Below, piece by piece: positions 1 through 7,973 of a stretch of DNA of 7,973 nt (positions are counted from its first letter, which is position 1; each line of letters begins with the position of its first letter). Source of the stretch: Anaerolineae bacterium. GTDB lineage: Bacteria; Chloroflexota; Anaerolineae; JAFGEY01. The position numbers were made by a program, and so were the translations under genes. Location of the stretch: positions 1 to 7,973 of the forward strand of contig JAFGJF010000244.1 in assembly GCA_016929205.1 (NCBI GenBank). Direction: 5' to 3'. Under the pieces are notes generated by a model, which saw only the letters and a list, made by a program, of their open reading frames with translations, was not told where the DNA came from and ran no database searches.

Positions 1-339
1 CATCGCGCGTGGTGTTTTGGCCAGCCCGGCGCTGCGGATGGCCTCGACCAGGCCGGGGGTCTCTCGCTGAATCGCGCCGCGTGTCGCTTCTGGCGTCACG
101 TCGCGCGGGGCAAAGCCGGTGCCGCCGGTGGTCAAGATTAGGTCCAGTCCCCGGCTGTCACACCATTCGACCAGCTTTTCACAGATCAAGGGCTGTTCGT
201 CAGGGACAATGTCCTGCTCCAGGACGCGCGCTGCCCAGTGTTCGCGCACCCATTGGGCGATGAACGGCCCGCTGAGATCATGTTCCTCACCACGCGAGCA
301 GCGATCGCTGACGGTCAAGATGCCTACCGTGAATGCCAT
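1..339 (-). CDS. mogA: Molybdopterin adenylyltransferase MogA/MoaB, C-terminus cut by window edge
   Basis: This cytoplasmic enzyme activates molybdopterin by adenylylation with ATP, giving the MPT-AMP that MoeA uses for metal insertion. I translated 113 residues from the ATG at 339-337 to the window edge; the frame stays open, so the C-terminus lies outside. Near the N-terminus is TVSDRCSRGEEHDLSGP (residues 9-25). Residues 70-86 read TTGGTGFAPRDVTPEAT, the pterin/nucleotide-binding signature of the MogA/MoaB/gephyrin-G family, followed by ETPGLVEAIR (93-102). The FAPRDVTPEAT wording is closer to the plant and animal Cnx1-G/gephyrin-G form than to E. coli MogA. The start is supported by AGGAG at 352-348, 8 nt upstream, whose first bases lie in the moeA stop codon. 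It is last in the visible run, directly behind moeA, as expected for its partner. The MogA versus MoaB subfamily is not settled, because the C-terminal part is missing. Confidence 0.93.
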   Translation of the reverse strand, partial: MAFTVGILTVSDRCSRGEEHDLSGPFIAQWVREHWAARVLEQDIVPDEQPLICEKLVEWCDSRGLDLILTTGGTGFAPRDVTPEATRGAIQRETPGLVEAIRSAGLAKTPRAM

Positions 340-350
340 ATTTTTGTCTC

Positions 351-1601
351 CTAATCAAACAACATCACTTTGACCCGCGATCCGGCAGGGGCGTGTGTCC
401 AGTCTTCGGGAATGATCGCAAAGCCATTGGCTTTGACCATTGAGTTCAGGATGCCCGATCCCTGCCCGCCGGTGAGCGATGCCTTGACGACGTCATTCTC
501 TTTTGTCACGTGTACACGCACGTAATGACGCCGCTCGTCTTTGGATTCGATCGCGTCGACCAGGATGGCGTCGACGGTGGGTTTGTCCAGGGCGGCGAAA
601 CCGAGCATCTTGAGCAGGGCCGGACGAGCAAAAATCTCAAACGAGACCATCACCGACACCGGGTTGCCCGGCATGCCGAGCATCGGGACGACGCGCCCGC
701 CAGCAGTCTTGAGCGTGCCAAAAGCCAGCGGTTTGCCCGGTTTCATGCGCACCCGCCAAAAGGTCATTTCTCCCTCGGCGGCGAGTACCTTTTTGACGAC
801 GTCAAAGTCGCCGACCGAGACGCCGCCGGAGGTCAGAAAGAGATCGACGCCCTGCTCCAGCCCGGCTTGAATCTTGGCCGTTAGATCGTGTTCCGTATCT
901 CGCGCGATGCCGAGCATGATCGGCACGCCGCCATACTTGAGCACCTGCGCGGCGTTCGAGTAGCCGTTCGAGTTGCGGATTTTGCCCGGCGCCAATGGTT
1001 CGTCAAGGTCGACCAGTTCGTCGCCCGTTGCCAGGATCGCCACACGCGGGCGGCGGATGACGCTGACCTCGGCGTATCCCAACGAGGCCAGCATGCCCAC
1101 TTCTTGCGGGCGGATGGGCGTGCCCTTGCACAAGATCAGATCGCCCCGGCGTACGTCTTCTCCGGCGTAGCGGATATTGTTCCCCACAGGCGGGGCAAAA
1201 AAGAGGTCGACCCAATCATCCTGCTGCCTGGTGCGTTCGAAACGGATCACGGCATCTGCGCCCCGGGGCACGGGCGCGCCGGTCATAATGCGAATCGCCG
1301 TGCCAGGGACCACGTCCTTTTGTGCCACATAACCTGCTGCCAGGTTCTCAACGATGCGCAAGCGCACCGGTGTTTCTTGAGTCGCGCTAATGGCGTCGGC
1401 GGCGATGACGGCGTATCCATCCATCGCCGAGTTGTCGTTCGGTGGAATGTCGATATCCGAGGTCACATCCTGTGCCAATACGCGCCCCAAAGAATCCAGG
1501 AGCGATACGCGTTCTGGTTCGAGGGGCTCAAACATGGACAAGACTTGCGTCAGCGCGTCCTCGACACTCAACATAGGGTATAAAGTGTGCTTGTGGTTCA
1601 T
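351..1601 (-). CDS. moeA: Molybdopterin molybdenumtransferase MoeA
   Basis: MoeA inserts molybdate into adenylylated molybdopterin, releasing AMP and giving active Moco. The 416-residue length is normal for the family. PPNDNSAMDGYA (53-64) carries the conserved Asp (D61, matching D59 of E. coli). MTGAPVPRGADAVIRFE (106-122) belongs to the early domain. The MogA-like domain III starts near 185 with RPRVAILATGDEL and includes LTSGGVSVGDFD (256-267), MKPGKPLAFG (286-295) and GMPGNPVSVMVSFE (309-322). The C-terminal domain IV runs from about 340, with GGQGSGILNSM at 378-388. The ATG overlaps the moaE stop (ATGA), and a GGAAGAG stretch lies about 9 nt upstream. A second Met at residue 10 has no ribosome binding site, so the long start is preferred. 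Only one moeA copy is visible. Function is assigned from family motifs and operon context. Confidence 0.97.
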   Translation of the reverse strand: MNHKHTLYPMLSVEDALTQVLSMFEPLEPERVSLLDSLGRVLAQDVTSDIDIPPNDNSAMDGYAVIAADAISATQETPVRLRIVENLAAGYVAQKDVVPGTAIRIMTGAPVPRGADAVIRFERTRQQDDWVDLFFAPPVGNNIRYAGEDVRRGDLILCKGTPIRPQEVGMLASLGYAEVSVIRRPRVAILATGDELVDLDEPLAPGKIRNSNGYSNAAQVLKYGGVPIMLGIARDTEHDLTAKIQAGLEQGVDLFLTSGGVSVGDFDVVKKVLAAEGEMTFWRVRMKPGKPLAFGTLKTAGGRVVPMLGMPGNPVSVMVSFEIFARPALLKMLGFAALDKPTVDAILVDAIESKDERRHYVRVHVTKENDVVKASLTGGQGSGILNSMVKANGFAIIPEDWTHAPAGSRVKVMLFD

Positions 1602-2020
1602 CCTGTTTCACTCTTCCATTCTGATCCGTCGGCCCATACCTCTTTTTTCCAAATTGGCGCGATCGCCTTGATGCGGTCGATGGCGTAATGCAGTGCGTCA
1701 AACATCTGCCGGCGGTGGGCGGCAGACAGGGCGATGACGATCGCTGTCTCGCCAATCTCTAGATGCCCGACGCGGTGCACCATCGCGGCCTGCCTGATCT
1801 CGGGCCAGCGTTCCCGCACTTCGCCGGCGATCTGGCCCAGAACGGCCTCGGCCATTTCGGGATACGCTTCGTATTCCAGGTACAGCGTCTCACGCCCATC
1901 CGAGTTGTTGCGTACCACGCCGACAAAGGTGACGACCGCGCCGTTGGCCGGATCAGCCAGCCGCGCAACGACCTCGTCAACCACAATCGCTTGTTCTGTA
2001 ATCTCGAACCGTTTTTTCAT
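1598..2020 (-). CDS. moaE: Molybdopterin synthase large (catalytic) subunit MoaE
   Basis: MoaE binds cyclic pyranopterin monophosphate and, with two thiocarboxylated MoaD subunits, installs the dithiolene sulfurs to form molybdopterin. From the ATG at 2020 the protein has 140 residues, close to the 150 of E. coli MoaE. Family motifs are GAVVTFVGVVR (27-37), the GRETLYLEYEAYPEMA stretch (42-57), HRVGHLEIGE (82-91), SAAHR (99-103) and IDRIKAIAPIWKKE (114-127). K118 and K125 sit where the active-site lysines K119 and K126 of E. coli lie. An in-frame TTG at 2038 would add six residues, but GGAGG at 2033-2029 lies inside that extension at ideal distance from the ATG, so the ATG is the start. The stop overlaps the moeA start by 4 nt. 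moaD ends 55 nt upstream. Confidence 0.97.
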   Translation of the reverse strand: MKKRFEITEQAIVVDEVVARLADPANGAVVTFVGVVRNNSDGRETLYLEYEAYPEMAEAVLGQIAGEVRERWPEIRQAAMVHRVGHLEIGETAIVIALSAAHRRQMFDALHYAIDRIKAIAPIWKKEVWADGSEWKSETG

Positions 2021-2028
2021 ATCCTTAT

Positions 2029-2033
2029 CCTCC
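2029..2033 (-). promoter_or_regulatory. Ribosome binding site of moaE
   Basis: GGAGG on the minus strand, 8 nt before the ATG at 2020. It decides between that ATG and the upstream in-frame TTG at 2038, because it would be coding sequence if the TTG were used. Confidence 0.85.
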
Positions 2034-2075
2034 GCCAACCGGGCCGGTCGTCCGGACCACGATCTTGTTCATATC

Positions 2076-2315
2076 TTACCCGCCGCCGACCGGGGGGATA
2101 AATGCCACCTGATCGCCGTCCTGCAGCGTCGTTTCCGGCCTGGCATAGATGGCATTGACCGCAAAGCGCAGTTCCATCCTGGCTAATCCGGGATAGGTTT
2201 CAAAGAGCGCCTTGGCTACATCCTGTACGGTCGTTTCTGGGGGAAACGGTTTGGTGATCGCACCCGTACCAGCCAATTCCCGTGCTGCTGCAAACAATTT
2301 GATCTGAATCTCCAT
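2076..2315 (-). CDS. moaD: Molybdopterin synthase small (sulfur carrier) subunit MoaD
   Basis: MoaD is a ubiquitin-fold sulfur carrier. Its C-terminal Gly is adenylylated and turned into a thiocarboxylate, which donates sulfur to the pterin inside MoaE. The 79-residue length is typical (81 in E. coli). The start MEIQIKLFAAARELAG is the classic first strand and helix, AVNAIYA (52-58) matches the middle strand, and DGDQVAFIPPVGGG is the family ending with the essential terminal Gly-Gly. The third residue from the end is Gly instead of the common Ser, which is harmless in known relatives. A stop codon lies three codons upstream in frame, so the ATG at 2315 is the only start. Its best ribosome site (GAGGTG) is unusually far, about 11 nt. 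The activating enzyme MoeB is not in this window. Confidence 0.96.
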   Translation of the reverse strand: MEIQIKLFAAARELAGTGAITKPFPPETTVQDVAKALFETYPGLARMELRFAVNAIYARPETTLQDGDQVAFIPPVGGG

Positions 2316-2389: not shown

Positions 2390-2863
2390 CTAGTCAAGTT
2401 CGATGTCGCCGCTTTTGCCGCCGCTCTTTTTGACCAGGCGAATATTGTTGATGCGCATGGTCTTTTCCACGGCCTTGGCCATATCATAGATCGTCAGTGC
2501 GGCGACGCTGACCGCGGTGAGTGCCTCCATCTCGACCCCGGTTTTGCCGCGCGTGCGCACCACCGCCGCAATCTCGATCTGTGAAGCGATTTGGTCGATC
2601 TCGAATGTCACGTCGACCTTGGTCAACATCAAGGGATGGCAGAGCGGGATCAAATTTGCCGTGTTCTTGGCTGCCATGATACCCGCCACTTGCGCCGTTG
2701 TCAACACGTCGCCTTTGGGCAGCCCTTTTTCAGCGATGAGACGCAGCGTTTCCGGTTTCATCTGCACTTCGCCCCGGGCCACGGCCACACGCTCTGTGTC
2801 CGGTTTGCCACCGACGTCCACCATCTGGACGCGGCCTTGTTCGTCAACGTGAGTCAAGCTCAT
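2390..2863 (-). CDS. moaC: Cyclic pyranopterin monophosphate synthase MoaC
   Basis: MoaC converts the 3',8-cyclo-GTP made by MoaA into cyclic pyranopterin monophosphate. From the ATG at 2863 the protein has 157 residues (E. coli 161). It begins [17 protein letters not shown], colinear with E. coli MoaC. All active-site positions are kept: K50 in LPKGDV, H76 in [12 protein letters not shown] (72-83), E111 and E113 in [11 protein letters not shown] (107-117), and D127 and K130 in [11 protein letters not shown] (124-134). The end [13 protein letters not shown] is also typical. An upstream in-frame GTG at 2881 would overlap moaA and add MVRWWG, which has no counterpart in the family. The ATG instead has AGGTGG 6 nt upstream. 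moaA ends 10 nt before, and their products work in sequence. Confidence 0.97.
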
Positions 2864-2869
2864 ACCCCA

Positions 2870-2875
2870 CCACCT
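2870..2875 (-). promoter_or_regulatory. Ribosome binding site of moaC, overlapping moaA stop
   Basis: AGGTGG on the minus strand, 6 nt before the ATG at 2863. Its first two bases are the last two of the moaA TAG stop codon. This favours the ATG over the GTG at 2881 and suggests translational coupling. Confidence 0.65.
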
Positions 2876-3884
2876 AACCACCGATTTGTGACATCACCCG
2901 TTTTTCTGCGCTGGTCAGGTCTTGCAGGTGATGCTGTTCCGGCTTTTCAGCGATCCCGTATGCCAACAGGGCTTGAATTTCTTCCACGCCGGCTCCACTG
3001 CGCAGCGGGGTGCGCAGGTCGATCTCGCGATCGGACAGCAAGCAGGGGCGCAGTTGGCCGTCGGCAGTGAGGCGCAGGCGGTTACACTGCTGGCAAAAGT
3101 GCTCGCTGATCGGCGTGATAAAGCCAATTGTGCCCTTGGCACCAGGCAAACGATAGTAGCGTGCCGGACCGGCCCCGGTAGGGCTGTGTGCGGCCTCGAG
3201 CGTGCCTAATGCTGCCTCAATTTTACCACGAATCTCGGCTGCTGTCACCACGGCATCGTCCCAAGCCTGGCCCGGTGAAGCCGTTTCCCCAACTGGCATC
3301 CATTCGATGAACCGGATGTGCCAGCCGTCACTCACACCTTGCTGGCCCAGGCTTTTCTGGGCCAGGTCGATCACTTCGTCGTCGTTTAGCCCCCGGATGA
3401 CGACGCTGTTGATCTTGACCGGCTCCAATCCGGCCCGGTGTGCGGCCTCGATGCCGTCCAGCGCATCCTGCAAGCTGCCGCGCCGGGTGATCGCGGCGAA
3501 ACGCTTGGGGCGCAGGGTGTCGAGGCTGATGTTGACCCGCTTGAGGCCCGCCCGGGCGAGAGCCTGGGCATAACGGGGCAGCAGGGTGCCGTTTGTGGTC
3601 AGCGACAGGTCATCGATGCCGGGGATGTTAGCCAGCAGACTGACCAGGTCGGCCAGTCCTTTGCGGACCAATGGCTCGCCGCCGGTCAATCGTATCTTGC
3701 TGATGCCCAGCCTGGCGGCAGCGCGTACGACTGTTTCAATTTCTTCGTAGCGCAAGATGTCGTCGTGTGCACAGGGTGGAACGCCGTCGGGCGGCATGCA
3801 GTAAACGCAGCGCAGGTTGCAGCGGTCGGTCACAGAAATGCGCAGATAGTTGATTGCGCGGTTGTATAAATCGAGATGCGTCAT
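2874..3884 (-). CDS. moaA: GTP 3',8-cyclase MoaA (radical SAM)
   Basis: MoaA is the first enzyme of Moco synthesis. It uses a radical-SAM [4Fe-4S] cluster and a second cluster to turn GTP into 3',8-cyclo-GTP. The 336-residue length is normal. The N-terminal cluster motif is C22-x3-C26-x2-C29 in [28 protein letters not shown] (around 67-78) is the SAM-binding GGE motif. The substrate-side cluster ligands are C264, C267 and C281 in [10 protein letters not shown] and LRPCLL. The protein ends in Gly-Gly, the tail that reaches into the active site and is needed for activity in known MoaA. The ATG at 3884 has AGGGGA just upstream, partly formed by the TAG stop of the ECF S gene 7 nt away. That tight junction physically links the transporter genes to the cofactor genes. 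Confidence 0.98.
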
Positions 3885-3891
3885 TGTTCCC

Positions 3892-4437
3892 CTATCGTTT
3901 TTCGGCCAGATATTTGAAAAAACCGGCCTTGCGCAGTGCGCGAAGCGTCAGGGCCCCTAACAGGCCACCAAGCGCACCCCACAGGATATAGTTGATCACC
4001 GACCAGGTCAGGCCAAGGGCCACGAATCCCAACGGCGCGCCGGACAAAATGCCAAATACCCATTTAACCAGGAATTTGCAAATATGTCCCAGCACGCCGG
4101 TCAAGGTGGCGGCGATCAGGTTTTCTGGATCTTGCAGCAGCCACAGTGCCAGATCGGCGCCGACGCCGACCATAGTATAAGAGAAAAACGTGTTCAATGC
4201 GCCAAAATCACCCATGCCCATAAAGGCGGCAATGAGGCCGGAGGTCAGGCCGACCAGGCTCACCGCGCCACGCTTGGGCACGACGCCGCCGGCGACAATG
4301 ACGATTGCCATCCAGAACAGTCCCGAATGTCCGGGCAGTTGCACCGGCAGGCGCAGTGCGATCTTGGCGATGACGACCAGTGCCGAGAAAAGGGCCAACA
4401 AGACGAGTTCGAACGTCGTAAAATATCGTTTCCTCAT
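3892..4437 (-). CDS. ECF transporter S component, substrate unknown
   Basis: This is a 181-residue, very hydrophobic membrane protein with the size and layout of the substrate-binding S subunits of energy-coupling-factor importers. About six helices can be drawn (roughly 10-28, 38-53, 57-75, 80-101, 108-130, 137-166). The N-terminus (MRKRYFTTFELVLLALFSAL) resembles S components that begin with a short basic stretch and an Ala-rich first helix used for docking onto EcfT. The loop after helix 1 has VQLPGHSGLFWM (32-43), a likely binding-site segment. Several polar or charged residues lie in or near membrane segments: K25, R29, H37, N82, H118, K121 and K125. It sits 6 nt behind the anchored sulfite-oxidase-like gene and 7 nt before moaA. 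I cannot place it in a named S family (BioY, ThiT, RibU, YkoE, CbiM/NikM). Context suggests molybdate, tungstate or a pterin, which is inference. Confidence 0.82.
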   Translation of the reverse strand: MRKRYFTTFELVLLALFSALVVIAKIALRLPVQLPGHSGLFWMAIVIVAGGVVPKRGAVSLVGLTSGLIAAFMGMGDFGALNTFFSYTMVGVGADLALWLLQDPENLIAATLTGVLGHICKFLVKWVFGILSGAPLGFVALGLTWSVINYILWGALGGLLGALTLRALRKAGFFKYLAEKR

Positions 4438-4443
4438 TTTGCA

Positions 4444-4917
4444 CTACTCACCGACCCTGATTTCGTCCACATCCTGGATCCATTCGTCACGCGTATCCAG
4501 GTTTTCAAGTTTGGAGACGAGCTTGAGCGTGCCCTTGTTGGATAGGTCAAACATGACCATATTGGTTTCGTCCTCTACCTCGCTCCAGGTCAGCGACGCC
4601 GTTTTTCCCCGGCTGCTGCTGACGACGACGATTGTCGTGTCCGGTTTGAATCGATCGGGCGCGAGGCGCAGCAGCAGTACATCGCGCAGCAGCCAGCCTT
4701 CCTGCGTTTTACCTTCCTCGGCGTCGACAAAACTGACCTGGGTCAATCGATCCAGATCTTCCGGCTTGAACGTGCCAACCAGTCTGTCCCGGTAATAGAT
4801 AGGAATGCTTCCTGGTTCCACAACCGCGTTCTTGCGCCTTATGACATCAATGCCGATGACTAGACCCGCCAGCGCCAGGATAATAACCAGGGCGATGATG
4901 ATCCGGGTTCGTCTCAT
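4444..4917 (-). CDS. Membrane-anchored protein with sulfite-oxidase-like fold domain
   Basis: A 157-residue protein with one N-terminal hydrophobic helix (about 6-25, after MRRTR), followed by a soluble domain probably outside the cell. The soluble part follows the layout of the molybdopterin-binding oxidoreductase (sulfite oxidase) domain: KPEDLDRL (51-58), GWLLRDVLL (74-82), a strand TIVVVSSSRG (95-104), LTWSEVED (109-116), and the closing EWIQDVDEIRV (145-155), which resembles the KWL-x-I-x-V ending of that family. It is shorter than catalytic members and has no cysteine at all, so the Cys that ligates molybdenum is absent and catalysis by that chemistry is unlikely. Basic residues flank both ends of the helix, so its orientation is uncertain. 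The ATG has GAGG about 4 nt upstream. Lying between EcfT and the S component, it may be an accessory or capture subunit of the transporter. The fold assignment is by eye. Confidence 0.62.
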   Translation of the reverse strand: MRRTRIIIALVIILALAGLVIGIDVIRRKNAVVEPGSIPIYYRDRLVGTFKPEDLDRLTQVSFVDAEEGKTQEGWLLRDVLLLRLAPDRFKPDTTIVVVSSSRGKTASLTWSEVEDETNMVMFDLSNKGTLKLVSKLENLDTRDEWIQDVDEIRVGE

Positions 4918-4953
4918 TTTTCCTCTTTTCTATCCTGTTATAGAAACAAGATT

Positions 4954-5682
4954 TTACAGTCTGACAAATACGAACAAGACGATTGCGACGACGGCGCTGC
5001 CGATCAGCCCCCAATCCTGCCACCTCATCGCCAACTGCTTGTAGGAGCGGCGGTGCGGCGCATCCAGGCCACGCGCACAAGCTGCTTCTGTTGCCGCCCA
5101 GGCACGCCGCGTGGTCAGCACAATCGCCGGCACGGTCAGCGCTACCAGGTCACGCAAGCGCAGGATCAACAGGCGCAGCGAGCTCTTTTCTACCTGCCAC
5201 GCGCCGCGGGCCATCTGTGCCTCCTGGATCGATCGCCATTCATCGCCGAGCAGGTAGGTGCTCTGAAAGGCCAGGCCCAGGCTGAATGCATAACGGTATG
5301 GAACGCGCAGTGCCTCCAGGGCCAGGCGAAACTCGTCGGATGTGGTGGTGCCAACCAAAAAAACCATGAGGCTGGCCAACAGGACGATGCGCAGGGTGAT
5401 GACGATTGCCAGGTCTAGCCCGACGACGAGCCAATCGACGATCAAGACGATGACCAGCAACCACTTGAGCTGCCACACTTGCCGGGTGACCTGGGGCAGC
5501 AGCCGCGCCCAGAGCAACACCAGGACGTAGAGCAGCATAAATGCGACAAGCCGCTCCAAAGGCAGCATGACGGCCAACGACAAACACACGCTCAAAGCCA
5601 GCTTGGCGCGGGGGTCAACCTGTCGCAGCGGCGATTCGGCGACCAGTGTTGGCTTGTGGGTACGGTGCCGTCCAAATCTCAC
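4954..5682 (-). CDS. ecfT: ECF transporter transmembrane coupling protein EcfT
   Basis: EcfT is the membrane scaffold that couples ATP hydrolysis to tilting of the S component. From the GTG at 5682 it has 242 residues. The N-terminal part has SPLRQVDPRAKLAL (17-30), a common opening of the CbiQ/EcfT family, followed by hydrophobic helices (about 28-62, 70-112 and a last one near 220-240). The two cytoplasmic coupling-helix motifs are clear: EAQMARGA (154-161) and AACARGLDAP (200-209), each with the Ala-Arg-Gly that contacts the ATPase. EALRVPYRYAF (123-133) also fits the family. An open frame continues upstream to an ATG at 5748, but that extension overlaps the ATPase gene and lacks family similarity. 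The GTG forms a GTGA overlap with the ATPase stop and has a near-perfect ribosome site, so I take it as the start. Confidence 0.92.
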   Translation of the reverse strand: MRFGRHRTHKPTLVAESPLRQVDPRAKLALSVCLSLAVMLPLERLVAFMLLYVLVLLWARLLPQVTRQVWQLKWLLVIVLIVDWLVVGLDLAIVITLRIVLLASLMVFLVGTTTSDEFRLALEALRVPYRYAFSLGLAFQSTYLLGDEWRSIQEAQMARGAWQVEKSSLRLLILRLRDLVALTVPAIVLTTRRAWAATEAACARGLDAPHRRSYKQLAMRWQDWGLIGSAVVAIVLFVFVRL

Positions 5683-7070
5683 ATTGCCTCCAGCGCCCAC
5701 TGCGGCACATGCAGTCCGATCCTGCCCCAGGCCGATCGATCGTCCCATATCTTTTCCGTCGGCCCATCGGCAACCAGTCCATCCCGGTCCAACAGCATTA
5801 GCCGGTCAGCGTGGCGAGCCAACGATAGATCGTGCGTGGTTATGATCACCAGCCGCCCGGCCTTGGCCAAGGCCCGAGCCAGCCGCACCAGCTTCGTCTT
5901 GTGTTCTGCATCCTGGCCCAATGAGGGTTCGTCGAGCAGCACGCCGTGCCGGGGCGTGCGCATCAAGGCCGTCGCCAGGGCCACGCGCTTTTTCTGTCCC
6001 TCACTGAGCAATAACGGTTGTGCGTTTTCGTGATCGCACAAGCCCAACACGTCGAGCAGCCAGCGATAACGGGCCATATCGGGGTTCGGTATCTTGAACA
6101 GGATCTCGTCGCGCACGGTGGCGCTAAAGAGCTGCCAATCCGGGTTTTGGAAAACCAGGGCCAGATCGGGCTGCCTGCCACCAACGGTGGCCGTACCGCT
6201 GTGCCGCTGCAGGCCGGCCAGGGCGCGCAACAGCGTCGTTTTGCCCACCCCGTTTCGCCCGATGATGGCCACAATCTGCCCGCTCTCGACAGAAAAGCTC
6301 AGGTCATGCAAGATGCTGCGTCCTGCCAGTTGCACCCCAAGCCCCGATACCTCCAGGGCGAACGGTTCGCCGCCACCGACCGGAAAGGCTGTGGCGTCGA
6401 TGTCGCGCGTATCGCATACACCGTTGCCAAGTTCGACGGCCCGCAGTCCAGGGCTGGCAGCAAAAGGCTCAGTCCGGTGTTCGCAGACGACGATGGTTGT
6501 GCCGTTTTCAGCCAGCCCGTCCAGGTGGGTGACCAGTTCTTCTGCCGCTGTGGCATCCAGCATCGACAGCGGCTCGTCGAGCACCAGTGTCGGAGGCCGG
6601 CGGGCCATAGTAGCCGCCAAGGCCACTTTTTGCTGCTCGCCTCCCGACAGCGCGAGCGGCGAACGGGCGACCAGGTTGTCTAACCCGAATTGGCACAGCG
6701 TCTCCTCAAGACGATCCGCGATCGTCCTACGTGGCAGGCCCAGGTTTTCCAGGCCGAACAGAATCTCGTCCTCTACCGTCGAGGCCAGCATCTGCGAGGC
6801 CGGATTTTGAAAGACCAGCCCGACGTGTTCTGATAACCGCCACAAGGGTGTATTGTGGGTGGCCAAGGTGTCGACCCACACCTGGCCTTGCAGATGCCCC
6901 TTGTACAGGTGTGGGATCAGACCGCTCAGGCAGCGAGCCAGCGTGCTCTTGCCGCATCCCGACGGCCCGCTGACGAGGACCATCTCGCCAGGCGCGATGG
7001 CCAGTGAAAGTGGATCCAGGCCGTGTTGTTCTCCCAAATAGTGATAGGAAAGCTGCTCAGTCCGTAACAT
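5679..7070 (-). CDS. ecfA: ECF transporter ATPase with two fused nucleotide-binding domains
   Basis: This cytoplasmic ATPase powers the ECF importer. It is a single 463-residue chain holding both nucleotide-binding domains, which many ECF systems make as separate EcfA1 and EcfA2. Domain 1 has Walker A GPSGCGKST (35-43), Q-loop VFQNP (86-90), signature LSGGEQQK (141-148), Walker B TLVLDEP (161-167), D-loop SMLD (169-172) and H-loop His198. Domain 2 has Walker A GRNGVGKTT (271-279), Q-loop VFQNPDWQLFS (306-316), signature LSEGQKKR (355-362), Walker B HGVLLDEP (375-382), D-loop SLGQD (383-387) and H-loop His413. A linker lies around 202-236. All catalytic residues are present in both halves; only the second signature differs, with Glu for the first Gly. 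FQNP followed by Q at the Q-loop is typical of ECF ATPases. The start lies 13 nt after the TiaS-like gene with no clear Shine-Dalgarno, so it may depend on translation of that gene. Confidence 0.95.
   Translation of the reverse strand: MLRTEQLSYHYLGEQHGLDPLSLAIAPGEMVLVSGPSGCGKSTLARCLSGLIPHLYKGHLQGQVWVDTLATHNTPLWRLSEHVGLVFQNPASQMLASTVEDEILFGLENLGLPRRTIADRLEETLCQFGLDNLVARSPLALSGGEQQKVALAATMARRPPTLVLDEPLSMLDATAAEELVTHLDGLAENGTTIVVCEHRTEPFAASPGLRAVELGNGVCDTRDIDATAFPVGGGEPFALEVSGLGVQLAGRSILHDLSFSVESGQIVAIIGRNGVGKTTLLRALAGLQRHSGTATVGGRQPDLALVFQNPDWQLFSATVRDEILFKIPNPDMARYRWLLDVLGLCDHENAQPLLLSEGQKKRVALATALMRTPRHGVLLDEPSLGQDAEHKTKLVRLARALAKAGRLVIITTHDLSLARHADRLMLLDRDGLVADGPTEKIWDDRSAWGRIGLHVPQWALEAM
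5687..5691 (-). promoter_or_regulatory. Ribosome binding site of ecfT
   Basis: GGAGG on the minus strand, 4 nt before the GTG at 5682 and inside the end of the ATPase gene. It decides for this GTG over the upstream ATG at 5748 and implies coupled translation of the two subunits. Confidence 0.85.
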
Positions 7071-7083
7071 AGTCAGGTGTCGT

Positions 7084-7791
7084 TTAGTCCAGCTTGAGCG
7101 GCAGCCAGTGCGCGCCTCCGCACTGGCCGTCAGGTGCGGCGCGCTCGACGACGGCCACGGCGCGCCCGCCGCGCCGCGCCGGACGCAGCTTGTCGCACTG
7201 CACCAGTCCTTCGTTTACCAGCTGGCCATCCGTGGTCTGTACGGCCGCGATCCCGGCGGCCAGCACAGCGGACACAGGCTGCAGGCCGGCCAGTTCTCGC
7301 GAGCGTTCGATCAACACATAACGCCCGTCGTCGCCGGAGGCAGCCAGGCCCACCGCAGCCAACGCGCCGATCACGCCATCCTTGCTGCCGCCCAATCCTT
7401 CCAAAAAGAGGCTATGTGCGGCAGCCAGCTCGCGCGCCTGCTGCTGGGTGACCAGCTCTTGCTGCACGCTCGCACCAAATACCGAGATTTCAGTTGGCAC
7501 CTCGTCCGCAACGCAGAGCCCGGGATCGCTGCCCGGATGAAAATCCGCCAGCATGAGCGACTTGACCTGTTCGGCCAGAGAGGCTACGGTTGCGCCATCT
7601 GCTGGCTGTACGAGGATAGTCGAGCTGCTGTTGTTCTTGGTATAGGGTACGCGCGCATCGACGAGCAGTTGGTGGCGTGTGACGCCAAGGATGTTATGCT
7701 CCTGGCTCAGCGCAGCCGCGATCTGCCGCGCCAGGTGTCCCGTTCCGCGCGATTTTAATGTATCTGTGTCGTCTAGTCCGATGAAAATCAT
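7084..7791 (-). CDS. Stand-alone TiaS-like (tRNA-Ile2 agmatinylcytidine synthetase N-terminal) domain protein
   Basis: A 235-residue protein resembling the N-terminal part of archaeal TiaS, the enzyme that attaches agmatine to C34 of tRNA-Ile2 using ATP. Matching features in order are IGLDDTD (4-10, the DDTD motif of the ATP-dependent kinase-like domain), RGTGHLA (15-21), VPYTKNNSSS (48-57, corresponding to the PYKTRGNGA region of TiaS), SDPGLCVAD (88-96), GLGGSKDGVIGALAAVGL (132-149) and DKLRP (200-204). Full TiaS is about 400 residues or more and adds an OB-fold and a zinc ribbon for tRNA binding; both are missing. Bacteria normally use TilS and lysidine for this tRNA, so tRNA modification is improbable here. 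The start has AAGGA 7 nt upstream. It is the first complete gene before the transporter, which suggests an ATP-dependent role in the same pathway. The real function is unknown. Confidence 0.72.
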   Translation of the reverse strand: MIFIGLDDTDTLKSRGTGHLARQIAAALSQEHNILGVTRHQLLVDARVPYTKNNSSSTILVQPADGATVASLAEQVKSLMLADFHPGSDPGLCVADEVPTEISVFGASVQQELVTQQQARELAAAHSLFLEGLGGSKDGVIGALAAVGLAASGDDGRYVLIERSRELAGLQPVSAVLAAGIAAVQTTDGQLVNEGLVQCDKLRPARRGGRAVAVVERAAPDGQCGGAHWLPLKLD

Positions 7792-7879
7792 GTTGTGTTC
7801 CTTTTGTCAAGAGTGTTTGATTTACGTGTTTTTGTATTGCGTACTGCGTAACTCGTGATGCGTGACGCCATCTCACGTT
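7792..7879 (-). other. 88-nt spacer before the TiaS-like gene
   Basis: Most of this spacer is the left arm, loop and part of the right arm of the heptad palindrome. The remaining 43 nt next to the TiaS-like start are AT-rich and hold its AAGGA ribosome site at 7803-7799. A TTGACA lies only 13 nt before the ATG, which is too close for a useful promoter. I see no Moco riboswitch and no convincing promoter, so transcription probably begins further upstream, outside the window. Confidence 0.5.
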
Positions 7880-7903
7880 TCACGCCTCACGCTTTACGCA
7901 ATA
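7835..7903. repeat. Imperfect palindrome of 7-bp units (31-bp arms)
   Basis: The left arm is 7835-7865, the loop 7866-7872 and the right arm 7873-7903. The reverse complement of the left arm matches the right arm at 24 of 31 positions. Each arm consists of four 7-bp units whose first five bases are mostly TCACG or TTACG with two variable bases, ending in a shared CAATA. Right-arm units read TCACGTT, TCACGCC, TCACGCT, TTACGCA; left-arm units (reverse complement) read TCACGCA, TCACGAG, TTACGCA, GTACGCA. The mismatches fall mostly in the two variable bases. The right arm runs into the end of the upstream kinase-fold gene, supplying its stop codon. No T-run follows on the minus strand, so it does not look like a simple intrinsic terminator. 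It may be a dispersed palindromic element like REP. Confidence 0.75.
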
Positions 7904-7973
7904 GATCCGCGTGCCCGGGTTTTCGCCTTGCAGGGCGTGGGTGAGGTTGCCGGGCTCGCGGCCGTTGATGATA
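7880..7973 (-). CDS. C-terminal end of an amino-acid-kinase-fold protein (UMP kinase or molybdenum storage protein type)
   Basis: Only the last 30 residues are visible, from the window edge (first whole codon at 7972) to a TGA at 7882-7880. They include IINGREPGNLTHALQGE followed by NPGTRIYC. This fits the ending of the amino-acid-kinase superfamily, where UMP kinase, isopentenyl phosphate kinase and the molybdenum storage protein subunits share a pattern like N-x3-PG-x-L-x2-AL-x-GE-x2-GT-x-I. The NG and PGNLT wording and the position directly upstream of a molybdenum operon make a storage-protein-like member attractive, but UMP kinase or another kinase is equally possible on so little sequence. 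The last residues after GTRI (YCVKREA) are encoded by the arm of a palindromic repeat, so the natural tail may have been replaced. The next gene starts 88 nt downstream on the same strand. Confidence 0.6.
   Translation of the reverse strand, partial: IINGREPGNLTHALQGENPGTRIYCVKREA

Follow-up and report, generated by a model that had tools for sequence, protein, structure and literature searches.

An ECF importer unit of molybdenum and tungsten cofactor metabolism in Anaerolineae, with a pterin as candidate substrate

The stretch of DNA analysed here, 7,973 nucleotides of contig JAFGJF010000244.1 from an Anaerolineae bacterium (assembly GCA_016929205.1; henceforth the window), carries on its minus strand an energy-coupling factor (ECF) importer next to genes for biosynthesis of the molybdenum cofactor (Moco), in the arrangement TiaS-ECF-moaACDE-moeA-mog (Table 1). 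Five genes make up the importer unit as we see it: those encoding a TiaS-like protein, a fused ATPase (EcfA-A), the coupling component EcfT, a protein here called Orf157 and the S component. Their assignment to molybdenum/tungsten (Mo/W)-cofactor metabolism is strongly supported. We read the unit as a group I ECF importer with components of its own, similar to YkoEDC, whose substrate is most likely a pterin, be it a Moco precursor, molybdopterin/Moco or a breakdown product; this reading is offered tentatively, at somewhat less than an even chance, with a pterin-type substrate ranked first and molybdate/tungstate second. An initial annotation of the window had described a two-domain ATPase, EcfT and an S component on one strand ahead of moaA, delimited as positions 3892-7070, and had proposed molybdate, tungstate or a pterin as substrate; its observations were confirmed in part, and its interpretation found partial support. 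The three components and their same-strand order are confirmed, and the S stop codon (TAG, 3894-3892) does lie 7 nt ahead of the moaA ATG, within the moaA ribosome-site sequence (TAGGGGA), as read directly. The named genes are not directly consecutive, however, because orf157 sits between ecfT and the S gene. The genes from S to EcfA-A were rightly included, but the TiaS-like gene lies directly upstream of them, and since it and orf157, both of which recur with the ECF genes, had been overlooked, the unit is larger than 3892-7070.

The ECF genes of the window are separated by short gaps or overlap, and are probably transcribed as one unit. As in group I ECF transporters, dedicated A, T and S genes are encoded together, the T component belongs to the CbiQ/EcfT family (PF02361, over cut-off), and the S component has the six-helix S fold in its structural model. 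EcfA-A matches TIGR04520 in two stretches (E 5.6e-88, below the family cut-off). For EcfT, a GTG start at 5682, which overlaps the EcfA-A stop codon (GTGA), is more likely than the start at 5748 given in the open reading frame (ORF) list. No match to PF12849 or PF13531, as expected of an oxyanion-binding protein of the periplasmic binding protein (PBP) type, was found among the ten window proteins scanned (best 25 families for EcfA-A; the mog fragment left out). This fragment, assigned by eye, is also 46-63% identical to relatives that adjoin moeA in other loci.

Table 1. Genes in the window (aa, amino acids).
Feature	Position	Strand	Supporting match
TiaS-like/methanogenesis-marker-11-like protein (matches TCKD-type part of TiaS)	7084..7791	-	PF22641 E 1.1e-5, TIGR03280 E 2.2e-12, NF040849 E 4.5e-8, all below cut-offs
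EcfA-A, 463 aa, two fused ECF ATPase domains	5679..7070	-	PF00005 E 6.4e-48, two stretches
EcfT transmembrane coupling component	4954..5682	-	PF02361 CbiQ E 1.6e-18, over cut-off
Orf157, 157 aa, N-terminal helix (putative membrane anchor) and predicted sulfite-oxidase/PruR-like domain, no cysteine	4444..4917	-	
S component (EcfS), 181 aa, predicted YkoE-type fold	3892..4437	-	
moaA	2874..3884	-	TIGR02666 381 bits, over cut-off
moaC	2390..2881	-	PF01967 E 2e-59
moaD	2076..2315	-	PF02597 E 7.7e-18; TIGR01682 61.6 bits, just under cut-off 66.15
moaE	1598..2038	-	PF02391 E 5.2e-39
moeA	351..1601	-	PF03453, PF00994, PF03454
mog/moaB-type protein, cut by window edge	1..339	-	open ORF; family by eye

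The S family comprises 1233 database proteins at E<=0.001, the best 120 of which were used as homologue list, and 26 of these 120 formed the S profile (A1). A scan of bacterial and archaeal genomes for S rendered 27 loci (L001-L027), 25 of them with Chloroflexi/Anaerolineae-type titles and two (L006, L024) titled Spirochaetes. All five genes were matched in 20 of the 27. Four of the remaining seven (L001, L004, L009, L026) are incomplete at contig ends, two (L002, L021) have no EcfT match but do have an ORF of EcfT size in the EcfT place, and in L003 a TiaS-like match, 36% identical, is found some 11 kb upstream of S, within one contig. The co-occurrence of the five genes exceeds chance. When 160 genomes drawn from one class were searched, the S profile was matched in seven, one of which (G143) has a divergent S that found 47 proteins when used as query; its stretch holds a triad of a lipoprotein-like Orf157 analogue, a TiaS-like gene and S, with no EcfA or EcfT adjacent.

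Neighbourhoods were compared over 30 distinct loci (the window, L001-L027, L035 and L036; L028, L029, L031 and L033 were skipped as duplicates, and L037, which repeats L023, is outside this set). Moco genes, Tup, Wtp, MOSC, the molybdenum storage protein (MoSto), a PBP-type regulator or a Moco riboswitch within the fetched stretch were counted as Mo/W markers. Such a marker lies near the ECF unit in 18 of the 30 loci; in L005, L008 and L015 it is a PBP-type regulator, and in L010 a riboswitch alone. Moco biosynthesis genes are present in seven loci and in three gene orders, namely that of the window, a second one in which the Moco genes are followed by MoSto and this by TiaS-ECF, two genes of the opposite strand lying in between (L007, L014, L020, L036), and a third one, moeA-moaA-moaC-MOSC-TiaS-ECF (L022, L025). 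The largest set, moaACDE-moeA-mog-MoSto-TiaS-EcfAA-EcfT-Orf157-S-TupBCA-two PF00174-type proteins-WtpAB, is found in L036, where the PF00174-type proteins were assigned by similarity to PF00174-matching proteins of other loci. MoSto was identified through the L007 protein, which matches the solved molybdenum storage protein subunit beta with E 1.7e-74. The recurrence of S next to moa/moe genes, which the initial annotation had proposed to look for, was found, and the Mo/W linkage in divergent loci, among them one of the two Spirochaetes-titled metagenome-assembled genomes (MAGs), the three gene orders and the Moco riboswitches of some loci uphold its placing of the unit in Mo/W-cofactor metabolism. 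On the other hand, 12 of the 30 loci have no Mo/W marker, five of them short or one-sided (L001, L004, L009, L023, L026) and seven not, as would be the case if a generic ECF unit were co-located with Mo/W islands by chance or passively. We disfavour this explanation as quite improbable, in view of the three gene orders, of the Moco riboswitches that L010 and L022 have as part of the ECF cluster, and of the surroundings of the TiaS-like gene in the five genomes negative for S that have one: in four of them it adjoins MoSto, Wtp, Tup or moaA-moaC-MOSC.

A scan of 30 fetched loci (29 distinct) and the window with Rfam RF01055, the Moco/tungsten riboswitch, gave eight matches over the gathering score in six loci: L007, L010 (twice), L020, L022, L025 (twice) and L036. 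In L010 one riboswitch ends 68 nt ahead of a tight cluster encoding a PF00174 lipoprotein, the TiaS-like protein, EcfA-A, EcfT, Orf157 and S, and in L022 it stands between EcfA-A and tupBCA-ecfT-orf157-S. In L007, L020 and L036 it precedes moaA, and in L025 the two matches precede mog-moeA genes and tupB, respectively. According to the available part of PMC2408646, RNAs of this type are associated with transporters of molybdate, with the synthesis of Moco and with Moco-dependent enzymes; their presence near the ECF unit would therefore place it in the Moco regulon but, given these gene classes, does not distinguish a pterin from a metal. The window itself gave no riboswitch match at E<=1, and positions 7700-7973 chance-level matches only. 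As separate observations, the second riboswitch of L010 (7419-7549) immediately precedes genes for a protein that matches peptidase M55 and for a TPR protein, an unexpected pairing, and a NiCo riboswitch, unrelated to the ECF unit, precedes a P-type cation ATPase gene at L006:11632-11713.

The initial annotation had stated that a close S homologue proven to carry a vitamin would speak against a new substrate. No such close homologue emerged: the nearest solved S component turned out to be the thiamine binder YkoE (PDB 5edl), 18% identical in structural alignment. The window S does not reach the curated score of the YkoE family PF09819 (20.3 bits vs 25.2), some of its homologues carry a precomputed PF09819 match, and single-sequence searches of S or Orf157 against solved structures gave no relevant match. 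A profile search against PDB sequences aligned S with YkoE at E 0.093; in this weak alignment, counted over 185 sequences, Trp49 of YkoE is kept, the place of Glu77 is taken by Ala, that of Gln95 by Val/Leu/Ile and that of Asp131 by Lys/Arg, and Tyr46, just outside the aligned stretch, would correspond by offset to Gly39 of S. The A-A/T/S architecture shared with YkoEDC (PMC5037267, available part), the YkoE fold, the weak PF09819 match and some source annotations ('ABC-type thiamin/hydroxymethylpyrimidine transport system permease subunit') would be expected of a thiamine or hydroxymethylpyrimidine importer lying in a molybdenum island by happenstance. Such an importer is, however, very unlikely, with three of the four aligned thiamine contacts changed, and with no TPP (thiamine pyrophosphate) riboswitch at the gathering threshold in the 30 fetched loci or at E<=1 in the window, as against Moco riboswitches in six loci; no thiamine genes were noticed in the neighbourhoods read, though no search was aimed at them. 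YkoEDC also lacks the additional Orf157 and TiaS-like genes, and has a THI-box where two relatives of the window unit have a Moco riboswitch.

What speaks most for a pterin is structural evidence, namely the predicted partner protein and a tryptophan site in S. In its model Orf157 has a sulfite-oxidase/PruR fold, and the top Foldseek match is PruR, a periplasmic pterin-binding protein. PruR is a small sulfite-oxidase-fold domain devoid of the Mo-ligand cysteine, and Orf157 of the window, for which the same fold is predicted, contains no cysteine. Unlike PruR, it keeps an N-terminal helix (residues 2-29 in the model) which we read as a membrane anchor and which would leave the domain outside the membrane. 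PruR is encoded with a DcpA-type c-di-GMP (cyclic di-GMP) enzyme, whereas Orf157 is encoded with an ECF importer and Moco genes. Residues W146 and R143 are invariant in the Orf157 alignment (A2), 21 rows of which come from S-positive loci, without L015, where a stop codon interrupts the Orf157 stretch, and without L004, L009, L013, L018, L021 and L026. Because of this predicted PruR-like fold, the pterin gains most among the three substrates initially proposed. The accompanying statement that ECF importers for pterins are not known needs narrowing, since the ECF transporter FolT takes up folate, a vitamin containing a pterin, whose ring stacks on Phe80 and is read at N2/N3 by Asp64 (PMC4525288, available part). 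As far as the accessible portions of the open-licence literature go, we found no ECF importer described as taking up molybdate, tungstate, Moco or free pterins.

If the substrate is a pterin, Orf157 would capture it outside the membrane and hand it to the S component, where W42 and Y87 may stack on the ring, D95 may read it, and H118, K121 and K125 may hold an anionic group (phosphate or metal-oxo). EcfT and the fused EcfA-A would then spend ATP to release the pterin inside the cell, and the TiaS-like protein might modify or activate it for MoaC, MoaE or MoeA. The direction of transport is likewise presumed. A narrower version, in which the unit is a salvage importer for the Mo/W cofactor itself or molybdopterin, and the extracytoplasmic pterin-binding domain delivers a metal-pterin or pterin phosphate to the YkoE-like S component, appears rather unlikely.

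The alternative ranked second is that molybdate or tungstate enters through the unit, which would be an additional or conditional route alongside TupABC, WtpABC or ModABC, which share its Mo/W islands and use a PBP-type binding protein where the ECF unit uses an S component. Orf157 would then be an accessory membrane protein; it is comparable in place to CbiN, the second small membrane protein that accompanies the S module of the cobalt transporter CbiMNQO (PMC13119186, available part). TupA or TupB is encoded in 11 of the 30 loci and WtpA/B in five, tupBCA stands among the ECF genes in L022, basic residues are conserved in S (K121, K/R125), and in these bacteria tungstate-binding proteins of the TupA type carry, as an N- or C-terminal fusion, a PF00174 sulfite-oxidase/PruR-like domain (L003:4522-5901, L020:12293-13627). 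A tryptophan conserved at the ring-stacking position and a PruR-like partner, on the other hand, are not expected for a tetrahedral oxyanion, and the open-licence literature searched brought up no ECF oxyanion importer. The initial annotation had proposed to test whether genomes with such an S component are devoid of the classical importers. We compared 29 S-positive genomes (G143 and 28 that carry the main S), taken from the scan of all genomes, with the first 50 of 153 S-negative genomes of one class, a comparison in which kinship is not controlled, completeness is unstated for either set and Fisher tests are uncorrected. The TupA binding domain was found in 18/29 S-positive vs 28/50 S-negative genomes (a match confined to the PF00174-type part of the TupA query was not counted), ModA over cut-off in 10/29 vs 19/50, and WtpA over cut-off in 12/29 vs 8/50 (p 0.017). 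None of the three was over threshold in 6/29 vs 8/50 (p 0.76); the six S-positive genomes would suit the oxyanion reading, although G004 among them shows a TupA-like match of 61 residues that contains stops, and the ModA match of G064 falls short of the cut-off. The test failed: because one or more of these binding proteins are kept in 23 of the 29 S-positive genomes, as in 42 of the 50 S-negative ones, the ECF unit does not replace the classical importers. MoSto is enriched in S-positive genomes (12/29 vs 4/50, p 8e-4), which would suit metal uptake, as would the WtpA figures, and the tungsten enzyme AOR (29/29 vs 45/50, p 0.15) is not informative. Taken together, molybdate/tungstate import seems to us a possibility to be considered seriously, yet unlikely.

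The TiaS-like protein scores well below the curated NCBIfam thresholds (46.7 vs 255.8 bits for TIGR03280, 32.1 vs 600 bits for NF040849). It was matched in 27/29 S-positive vs 5/50 S-negative genomes; three of the 27 matches are 36-43% identical (G002, G143, G173) and that of G016 is partial, and in the two S-positive genomes with no match (G174, G176) contigs end inside or near orf157. In the five S-negative genomes the neighbours of the TiaS-like gene are MoSto together with Wtp, Tup or DUF134 (L038, L040, L042), moaA-moaC-MOSC and EcfA-A/EcfT (L039), or orf157 (L041). Orf157 was matched in 28/29 S-positive vs 1/50 S-negative genomes; as the S and Orf157 profiles (A1, A2) were built from S-positive sequences, these match by construction, and what informs is that Orf157 is almost missing from the 50 S-negative genomes. 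We know of no small-molecule role for the TiaS-like protein, a circumstance that would also fit import or sensing of some other small molecule needed by W/Mo enzymes, such as a metallophore or a sulfur compound. A TonB-dependent receptor gene directly convergent with S in L024 (10077-12563, Spirochaetes-titled MAG), whose best PDB match is the colicin I receptor, followed by siderophore receptors, could be taken in the same sense. We hold this explanation to be improbable: the receptor is found in one locus only, the recurrent gene clusters included none that stood out as metallophore genes, though no dedicated search was made, and the cofactor pathway is indicated by the Moco riboswitches and Moco genes.

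Several further arrangements were observed around these genes. MoSto homologues occur near TiaS-like genes in S-positive loci (L007:4992-5822, L014:2916-3746, L020:4856-5683, L036:4319-5146) and in genomes without S (L038:8499-9500, L040:8847-9677, L042:7292-8122). Genes for a DUF134 protein and for a small conserved one (104 aa in L014, no Pfam match) lie beside MoSto at L014:3759-4430, with equivalents in L003, L007, L020, L036 and L042; the TiaS-like gene also adjoins, except in L003. At L038:3639-6203, a multi-domain PF00174-type protein and a WtpA-like protein form a single ORF of 854 aa. L041:2601-3796 pairs orf157 with a TiaS-like gene, with no ECF genes beside them and no S detected in the genome, and L039:1-7620 carries moaA-moaC-MOSC-MOSC-TiaS-EcfA-A-EcfT without S or Orf157; this module may have lost its S component or may use one encoded elsewhere.

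A number of results weigh against a pterin importer, the main ones being that none of the genomic tests points to a need for imported pterin, and that TupA is fused to a domain of PruR/PF00174 type. moaA is kept in 25/29 S-positive vs 42/50 S-negative genomes and moaC in 25/29 S-positive ones (moeA in 28/29), and there is therefore no sign of dependence on salvage. Loss of moaA and moaC was considered as such a sign in G064 and G173, where neither gene was detected and moeA and AOR are kept, but was rejected, because S-negative genomes such as G047 also have no moaA together with ten AOR matches. The TupA fusion means that a PF00174-type domain may serve metal rather than pterin uptake in these bacteria; aligned with hhalign, Orf157 and the TupA-linked domain give E 0.0037 over 115 columns with a printed probability of 9%, which is suggestive only. 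Identity between Orf157 and PruR is 10-15%, VIA-align ranks sulfite oxidases above PruR, an Orf157 profile search against PDB sequences found no PruR, and the alignments tried gave no residue-level correspondence on which the PruR pterin contacts Tyr104 and Trp160 (Agrobacterium numbering) could be placed. According to the accessible part of a review, the truncated pocket of PruR is likely unable to hold the whole Moco. To this must be added the faint sequence alignment of S with YkoE, the loci with no Mo/W marker, the confinement of riboswitches within the ECF cluster to L010 and L022, and the fact that the genes do not always travel together, since G034 has Orf157 and a TiaS-like gene with no detected S, and G037 has EcfA-A and EcfT with neither S nor Orf157.

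Whichever substrate is transported, Orf157, the TiaS-like gene and the S family, all hitherto unannotated, are assigned to Mo/W-cofactor metabolism in a large group of uncultured, mostly Chloroflexota bacteria. If the substrate is molybdate or tungstate, it would represent a new substrate class for ECF transport. If it is a pterin, these bacteria would have a way of importing for a cofactor that is generally regarded as made entirely within the cell, and a named binding protein and S component would be available to test it.

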